Assembly (NCBI GenBank): GCA_022820825.1
Contig: JAJEEU010000093.1
Coordinates: 1 to 64,000, forward strand
Direction of reading: 5' to 3'
From: Vicinamibacteria bacterium
GTDB taxonomy: Bacteria > Acidobacteriota > Vicinamibacteria > Vicinamibacterales > UBA8438
DNA length: 64,000 nt
In this document: positions 62,809 to 64,000 of the stretch, one piece after another
How the letters are laid out: every line of letters starts with the position of its first letter
Numbering within the stretch: the stretch's first letter is position 1
Made by a program: the position numbers and the translations under genes
Notes under the pieces: generated by a model
What the model saw: only the letters and a program-made list of their open reading frames with translations
Databases searched by the model: none
What the model was told of the DNA's origin: nothing

Positions 62809-62944
62809 GCGCGCATTCTACTGGACGTTGCGCCGCGGCGACTCTTCGGCGATGTCGTGCTCGGGGTTGCGATTGTCTTCACCTTGTAGTTAGTTTTTTT
62901 TCAGGCGGCGTTGTGCCGTCGGTTGTTCAGCCGAGGAGGTAGCC

Positions 62945-63196
62945 ATGAGAAGCGGCGACGAAATGCTGCAACAGCTTGTCGAAAGGTCTGCCACGGACGA
63001 TGGTTTCCGGCAGGCGCTGCTCGACGATCCGAAGTCGACAATCAGTCAGGAACTGGGGATCACGATTCCCGAGTCGATGACGATCAAGGTGCACCAGAGC
63101 GACATGCAGACGGTCCACCTCGCATTGCCTCCGGATCCGAACATCACCGAAGAGCAACTCGAAGCCATCTCGGCCGGCCTTTGCTGCTGCTGGTAG
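62945..63196 (+). CDS. NHLP-type RiPP precursor peptide with Cys-rich tail
   Basis: The 83-residue peptide resembles nitrile-hydratase-alpha-like leader peptides: LLDDPKSTISQELGITIPES, then MTIKVHQSDMQTVHLALPP, then ITEEQLEAISAG, followed only by LCCCW. The leader-like part ends in the AG typical of the cleavage site, leaving a five-residue core with three Cys and a C-terminal Trp. A strong ribosome binding site (GAGGAGGT, 62933-62940) precedes ATG. A poly-T rich stretch (62890-62901) lies upstream. The neighbouring Rieske oxygenase may be a modifying enzyme. GC content is low for the window. Confidence 0.75.
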   Translation: MRSGDEMLQQLVERSATDDGFRQALLDDPKSTISQELGITIPESMTIKVHQSDMQTVHLALPPDPNITEEQLEAISAGLCCCW

Positions 63197-63609
63197 AACC
63201 GGCAGCCGGCGACCAGCCGGTCAGGATGCTGAAGGACCCGCGTCCGGGCATGGCTTGAGCCTCACCCCCAGCGCCCCGTTTCAGGCGGGCCGAGCCCGGC
63301 GATTACGCCGCGTGCATCTGCGCGGACAGGCCAGGTCGCAAGCGACTGTTCGTGCGTGTCTGCGCGGCGGAGCTGCGTCTGCTCATGCGCAAGTTGGCCG
63401 CCACGGGCGCCGCGTAGCGCGTTCCGGAGCGGCGGATTACCTCGACCGGCGCCTCTCGTCGCGGATTGCGCCCGCCACACAGATTCAACAACTCGTTACG
63501 CTTGCGCTACAAGGCGGCCTTTCTGCCACGGCCTGCCAGCGTCCGGGCTCGAGGACGTGAATGGTAGGGAGTGAGCCGCTTCACTCGTCTCCACAAGGAA
63601 TCCCGAATC
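63197..63609. other. Intergenic region, no credible gene
   Basis: 413 bp lie between the RiPP precursor and the Rieske gene. Short open frames on both strands have Arg- and Ala-rich, low-information products and no good ribosome binding site. No inverted repeat or match to repeat families A-C was found. The downstream edge holds AAGGAA (63595-63600), the ribosome binding site of the next gene. It could hold a decayed gene or a non-coding RNA. Confidence 0.5.
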
Positions 63610-64000
63610 ATGGACAAGTCTGAACGACTTCGAGTCCTGGGCGTTATAAGGGAGCATATCGCCAACAAGACCACTGCCGACGCCGGCGGCATCATGCGTG
63701 TGCCGATGTCGGATTTCACGTGCCGGCAGCTCTCGGCGCAGGAGCAGGATGTTCTCTTTCGGAGCACCCCCTTGTGCATGGGGCTCTCCAGCGCACTGCC
63801 GGAACCCGGGACATATTGGTCGGACAATGAAACAGGCATCCCGATTCTCATGGTTCGGGATGGTGAAGGCCGATTTCGTGCGTACGCCAACGTCTGTCGA
63901 CATCGAGGGGCCCAGGTCGCACCCGAAGGACGCGGGTCGAAGGCGCGCTTCATGTGTCCTTACCATGCATGGACGTACGGTATCGACGGGAAGTTGATGT
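63610..64000 (+). CDS. Rieske non-heme iron oxygenase alpha subunit, 5' part only
   Basis: 130 residues are visible, with the window ending inside the gene. The Rieske [2Fe-2S] motif is complete: CRHRGAQV (C-x-H) and CPYHAWTYGIDGKL (C-x2-H), in the context of ring-hydroxylating dioxygenases. The catalytic mononuclear iron domain lies beyond base 64000. The first 30 residues are longer than usual. AAGGAA 9 nt upstream supports ATG at 63610. It follows the RiPP precursor on the same strand after 413 bp, so it is a candidate tailoring enzyme. Confidence 0.85.
   Translation, partial: MDKSERLRVLGVIREHIANKTTADAGGIMRVPMSDFTCRQLSAQEQDVLFRSTPLCMGLSSALPEPGTYWSDNETGIPILMVRDGEGRFRAYANVCRHRGAQVAPEGRGSKARFMCPYHAWTYGIDGKLM

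Follow-up and report, generated by a model that had tools for sequence, protein, structure and literature searches.

The window, i.e. the whole stretch of 64,000 nucleotides analysed here, belongs to a contig (C102) of a Vicinamibacteria bacterium and carries close to its end an open reading frame on the plus strand (62,945 to 63,196). This frame begins with ATG, has a ribosome-binding site, GAGGAGG (62,933 to 62,939, plus strand), immediately 5' of it and encodes a peptide of 83 amino acids with the C-terminal end ...EEQLEAISAGLCCCW. In a profile search, the peptide matched the NHLP leader family TIGR03793 (leader_NHLP) with 67.9 bits against a curated cut-off of 50.9, and its nearest solved structure is a proteusin precursor (8tb1). 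The leader (residues 1 to 78) is followed by a five-residue core peptide, L-C-C-C-W (residues 79 to 83; 63,179 to 63,193, plus strand), the tail thus reading SAG-LCCCW. Downstream, after a gap of about 0.4 kb and on the same strand, lies the gene of a Rieske non-haem iron oxygenase alpha subunit (PF00355, PF00848), which extends from 63,610 to 64,791 and whose first part (63,610 to 64,000) is contained in the window.

It has been reported that in the srp pathway of sponges the YcaO enzyme SrpC forms three thiazolines, while SrpI is responsible for 6-bromination of the C-terminal Trp (PMC10286304; PMC10858898); according to a passage of PMC9426513 citing Nguyen et al. (JACS 2021), srp biosynthetic gene clusters are known from sponge microbiomes. 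The published precursor SrpE has the core LCCCW and the sequence NLTEEQL at residues 66-72, containing the LXXXXL motif that is bound by SrpI (PMC10858898). The window protein shows NITEEQL with identical numbering, and its ITEEQL (residues 67-72; 63,143 to 63,160, plus strand) is the counterpart of the SrpI-bound motif. Position 67 is Ile here and Leu in the published SrpE, Ile also being the consensus of the 80 homologues described below. Since both the core and the numbering of the leader motif equal those of the published SrpE, the window gene is srpE. The first-pass annotation, which had recognised an NHLP RiPP precursor with a five-residue LCCCW tail, was therefore right in this respect and also in calling the tail unusual, but not in treating it as new, as this core has already been published.

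Right after the srpE stop codon there is a hairpin of the form GCCGGC-loop-GCCGGT (63,205 to 63,221, plus strand). Similar GCCGGC-type hairpins occur within the first 40 nt past srpE in many srp loci, although not in all, and the stretch 3' of the window gene was no more stable than its shuffles (z 0.34). Neither a promoter-like site upstream of the window srpE nor a terminator with a T-run downstream was found.

In a scan of one genome per species, covering 84,980 species, 161 relatives of the peptide were obtained, 80 of which (81-89% identity) were kept. They span many bacterial phyla, and sponges are named in some of the records, e.g. Spongia_Bin9. Every one of the 80 is full length with AGLCCCW at its C-terminus, and srp genes are found near srpE in 79 of the 80 loci. 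Two observations had been named beforehand as counting against the annotation, namely homologues without a conserved Cys tail and homologous loci without modifying or export genes; both were checked in this set and neither applies. The tail residues are constant in 84 sequences, while the Cys codons alternate between TGC and TGT and the codons for Leu, Gly and Ala vary as well. Because the tail is invariant despite these codon changes, srpE shows a dN/dS of about 0.1 against its relatives, a second copy is present in the genome and 80 homologues share the tail, its conservation is, as judged from the sequences, due to selection on the peptide and not to chance. A further srpE-like copy (L179:2625-2834; 72% identity, LCCCW, NLTEEQL) was located on a 12-kb contig of genome G095, where no other srp gene was found.

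The second srpE copy and the main srp cluster

The same genome contains a second srpE on another contig, C48 (12,294 to 12,545, minus strand), which is 86% identical to the window copy and has an unchanged tail, and a third NHLP domain that is fused to another protein. Next to the second copy are encoded a YcaO protein with a leader-binding RRE (TIGR03604, 275 bits; TIGR03882, 132 bits), a tryptophan halogenase (PF04820) and an NHLM exporter with a C39 peptidase (NHLM ABC1; TIGR03796, 843 bits with a cut-off of 853). Thus, enzymes of the SrpC and SrpI types are both present in this genome. Other genes by this srpE code for an HlyD-like protein, an MMPL-like exporter, a fusion of AlkB/fatty-acid-desaturase-like and GlnE-like parts, an NHLP-cyclase fusion and a protein of 372 amino acids. 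The AlkB/fatty-acid-desaturase-family protein (L005:6256-8649 on C48), the C-terminal part of which resembles GlnE adenylyltransferase, is conserved in srp loci. The NHLM ABC2 exporter gene of this contig (L006:3055-5780; C48:15054-17779) is split by a frameshift, which is either real or an assembly error.

In the stretches examined around srpE in the 80 homologous loci, the 372-aa protein was encoded in 70, the YcaO protein in 69, the NHLP-cyclase fusion in 62, the AlkB-like protein in 55 and the halogenase in 51. Only at L023, situated at a contig end, did the stretch show neither the gene for the 372-aa protein nor those for YcaO and the halogenase; its srpE (L023/L184) looks like an orphan, but the contig stops 244 bp past the gene. 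The catalytic Lys of the halogenase is conserved in 50 out of 50 homologues, and the YcaO residues that were checked are conserved in nearly all. The azol(in)e proteusin system MprE/MprC resembles srp in its NHLP leader, for which the structure 8tb1 matching the window protein is known, and in its YcaO with RRE; it differs in its cores, and the leader of SrpE is not accepted by MprC.

Two explanations for the presence of two copies were rejected. Misbinning of either contig is contradicted by the flanking genes, whose nearest relatives belong to the same genus for both C48 and C102 (88% and 76%, respectively). A recent local duplication of srpE does not agree with the different nearest relatives of the copies, the C48 copy being 94% identical at the DNA level to that of L059 and the window copy 86.5% to that of L017.

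The satellite srpE and its Rieske oxygenase

The surroundings of the window copy are different. It had been proposed to extend the contig past 64 kb in the expectation of finding YcaO, radical SAM, PEARL-type LanB, peptidase-ABC or methyltransferase genes; the remaining 5.7 kb (to 69,663) hold the rest of the Rieske gene and none of the expected enzymes. The core srp enzymes are absent from C102 around the window copy, so that the window locus, although it carries an srpE, does not constitute an srp cluster; this srpE is a second, satellite copy lying apart from its cluster. Past the window end, the Rieske gene is followed (C102:64838-67135; L003:12839-15136) by a member of a protein family that has 21 matches in the genome and many in its relatives.

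Compared with the published srp clusters, the NHLP leader, the LCCCW core and the motif at residues 66-72 are the same, as are the YcaO, Trp halogenase and NHLM exporter present in the genome and in homologous loci, whereas the window copy has its place outside the cluster, next to the gene of a Rieske oxygenase. In the srp literature searched, the scope of which did not include the founding JACS 2021 paper, no Rieske gene is mentioned. With this scope, an srpE that stands apart from its cluster in company with a Rieske gene may be a new variant.

In the Rieske protein, the CxH...CxxH cluster ligands Cys95, His97, Cys115 and His118 and the two iron-site His, His216 and His221, are conserved in 27 out of 27 aligned rows; the carboxylate ligand of the iron site was not located in this alignment, and no partner reductase was seen among the genes adjacent to the Rieske gene. 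The best further match to the protein among 59 relatives of the host was 29% identical, and among 396 genomes drawn from the host phylum no other Rieske homologue passed 1e-90. Fifty srpE-bearing genomes from elsewhere yielded 12 Rieske matches with at least 58% identity, of which 10 were located on the srpE contig (eight within 4 kb of srpE, the other two at distances of 16 kb and 46 kb). Paralogues with at most 50% identity in the same srpE-bearing genomes were never near srpE. In a phylogenetic tree, the window protein and 11 full-length homologues of that set formed one clade (support 100/100), within which the proteins of the window, of genome G096 and of a Nitrospirales cluster, belonging to three phyla, grouped in a subclade that was again supported with 100/100. 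Both genes are under purifying selection, the dN/dS of the Rieske gene being about 0.19.

Genome G096 (Rhodospirillaceae Spongia_Bin9), an alphaproteobacterium, possesses a main srp cluster plus a separate srpE-Rieske pair inserted between unrelated genes. The two members of this pair are 82% and 79% identical to those of the window, stand in the same order and are about 0.4-0.5 kb apart. This satellite form was found in these two genomes only. Elsewhere, nine of the ten srp-linked Rieske genes are situated within the main cluster or on its contig and not in a satellite. As the Rieske gene is present in only about a quarter of the 50 srpE genomes, and mostly together with the main cluster, it is an accessory of the pathway. 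Judging its function from this linkage, we read the srpE-Rieske pair as a mobile module of precursor plus tailoring gene that depends on the main cluster for modification in trans. The oxygenase most likely oxygenates the modified core and gives rise to a variant product, even if its substrate could be other than SrpE.

Alternatively, the oxygenase might serve catabolism of the glycine-betaine or carnitine type and be a neighbour without any connection to SrpE, which would be in keeping with the named families that score highest, GbcA and carnitine monooxygenase oxygenase subunits. We regard this as unlikely, although it is the strongest of the alternatives: the GbcA score was 92 bits with a cut-off of 670, in 10 of 12 cases, and in different phyla, the clade goes together with srpE, and the 396 genomes of the host phylum contained no close homologue. 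It is considerably less probable that the window copy is a horizontally transferred relic of an srp cluster with no meaningful modified peptide output. Such a relic would fit the lack of modification and export genes in the rest of the contig and of a promoter-like site upstream; however, the reading frame is intact and preceded by a ribosome-binding site, the tail is invariant, the dN/dS values of both genes are low and the pair has been retained in another phylum.

We favour the view that the srp enzymes of C48 modify the satellite peptide in trans and that the adjacent Rieske enzyme likely oxygenates the modified core, and consider this proposal, deduced from the genes present, to be probably correct. 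The Ile at position 67, the frameshift in the NHLM ABC2 gene and the restricted occurrence of the Rieske gene speak against it. SrpE would be translated from both loci, C102 and C48. The RRE-YcaO of the SrpC type would then bind the leader and convert the three Cys to thiazolines, and the flavin halogenase of the SrpI type would bind the motif at leader residues 67-72 and brominate Trp83, both activities being known for homologues. By analogy with the NHLM family, the C39 peptidase-ABC protein may cleave after SAG and export the modified pentapeptide. In strains carrying the Rieske gene, its product might oxygenate the core or a group attached to it.

The first-pass annotation had offered three fates for the tail. 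Heterocyclisation is the reading supported by the RRE-YcaO encoded beside the second copy and most homologues and by the thiazolines published for homologues. For a metal-binding tag with three unmodified Cys, the CCC sequence would be a plausible ligand, but a YcaO with RRE adjoins most copies (69/80) and thiazoline formation on an LCCCW core has been published, which makes this reading very improbable. The third fate was that of a scaffold for the addition of amino acids. PEARL scaffold peptides have a C-terminal Trp and a long leader. That SrpE is a carrier of this kind, to whose C-terminus amino acids are added and later excised, is the least credible reading, for although its own C-terminal Trp and long leader are reminiscent of these scaffolds, neither the genome nor the control genomes gave a match to LanB/PEARL enzymes (Lant_dehydr_N, PF04738), YcaO and halogenase genes occur in the homologous loci, and heterocyclisation and bromination are the published chemistry of SrpE.

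Prenyltransferase-like and cyclase-like proteins of the cluster

Two further proteins of the cluster suggest a chemistry beyond thiazolines and bromination. The gene for the 372-aa protein (L005:11078-12193 on C48) is convergent with srpE and lies directly downstream of it in 69 of the 80 loci. Sequence searches against Pfam, NCBIfam, PHROGs and PDB gave no match, and thus no known prenyltransferase family. Its AlphaFold2 model (pLDDT 90.9) was compared with the PDB by Foldseek, and all 50 matches listed were aromatic, indole or histidine prenyltransferases, with a best E value of 4e-6, TM scores of about 0.4-0.57 and an rmsd of about 7-10 Å. A distant ABBA prenyltransferase-like fold is therefore predicted for this protein. 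Basic residues on its strands are invariant and would fit a diphosphate site.

The second protein, a fusion that joins an NHLP domain to a domain resembling class II terpene cyclases, is encoded at L005:4890-6188 on C48 and in 62 of the 80 srp loci. Its model (pLDDT 77.7) has a fold matching those of drimenol synthase (E 7.5e-12), of squalene-hopene cyclases and of MstE, a cyclase of meroterpenoids, and a profile match to drimenol synthase was also obtained (E 4e-6). It has DLDS, which does not vary among 33 sequences, where the classical acid motif would be DxDD.

Since precedents exist in NctPC, PalQ and the mpp cluster and the predicted folds point the same way, we think it a fair prediction from the models that the srp cluster may be capable of producing a peptide that is both brominated and terpenylated. 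NctPC is an ABBA-fold Trp prenyltransferase fused to an MstE-like terpene cyclase, which prenylates Trp and cyclises the chain (PMC13290415). Its folds are those predicted for the two srp proteins, while in srp these would be separate proteins with the NHLP domain on the cyclase-like one. PalQ prenylates the C-terminal Trp of PalX, an NHLP precursor in which, as in SrpE, this Trp is conserved; PalQ is a member of the isoprene synthase superfamily and not of the ABBA type predicted for the srp protein, and its three-gene cluster is devoid of YcaO and halogenase (PMC10853753). The mpp cluster of Moorena encodes the SrpI-like MppI, a LanM, the prenyltransferase MppC, the terpene synthase MppD and the oxygenase MppG (PMC11791876). 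It shares with srp the SrpI-like Trp brominase and predicted genes for prenylation, terpene cyclisation and oxygenation, but has a Nif11-type leader and the lanthipeptide core ACWRWSG, and no thiazolines have been described for it (PMC11791876).

More tentatively, as a possibility to which we give somewhat less than even weight, srp could be a peptide-terpenoid hybrid pathway, in which the ABBA-like protein would prenylate the (bromo)Trp, the AlkB/desaturase protein would oxidise the chain, the NHLP-fused cyclase would cyclise it and, in some strains, the mobile srpE-Rieske module would add an oxygenated variant. Prenylation of SrpE is not mentioned in the srp literature searched, again with the founding JACS 2021 paper outside its scope. 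The pathway is widespread in sponge symbionts and no final product has been described in that literature; Trp prenylation and terpene cyclisation are two predicted activities that could explain why no srp product has been matched. If this is true, bromination, azoline formation and terpene chemistry would be united on one core of five residues, and few natural-product pathways of sponge symbionts would be as widespread as this hybrid one. The terpenoid prediction is the part most deserving a bench test. The satellite, for its part, suggests that a precursor and a tailoring gene can move and persist apart from the main cluster, and such pairs would be missed by cluster-based mining.

Two diverged SrpE relatives (54% identity; L097:1495-1746 and L185:6854-7102, the latter on the minus strand) have the tails LCCCG and MCCCGI, respectively. 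Both retain the three Cys but have no Trp left in the tail, which excludes a bromination of this residue there.
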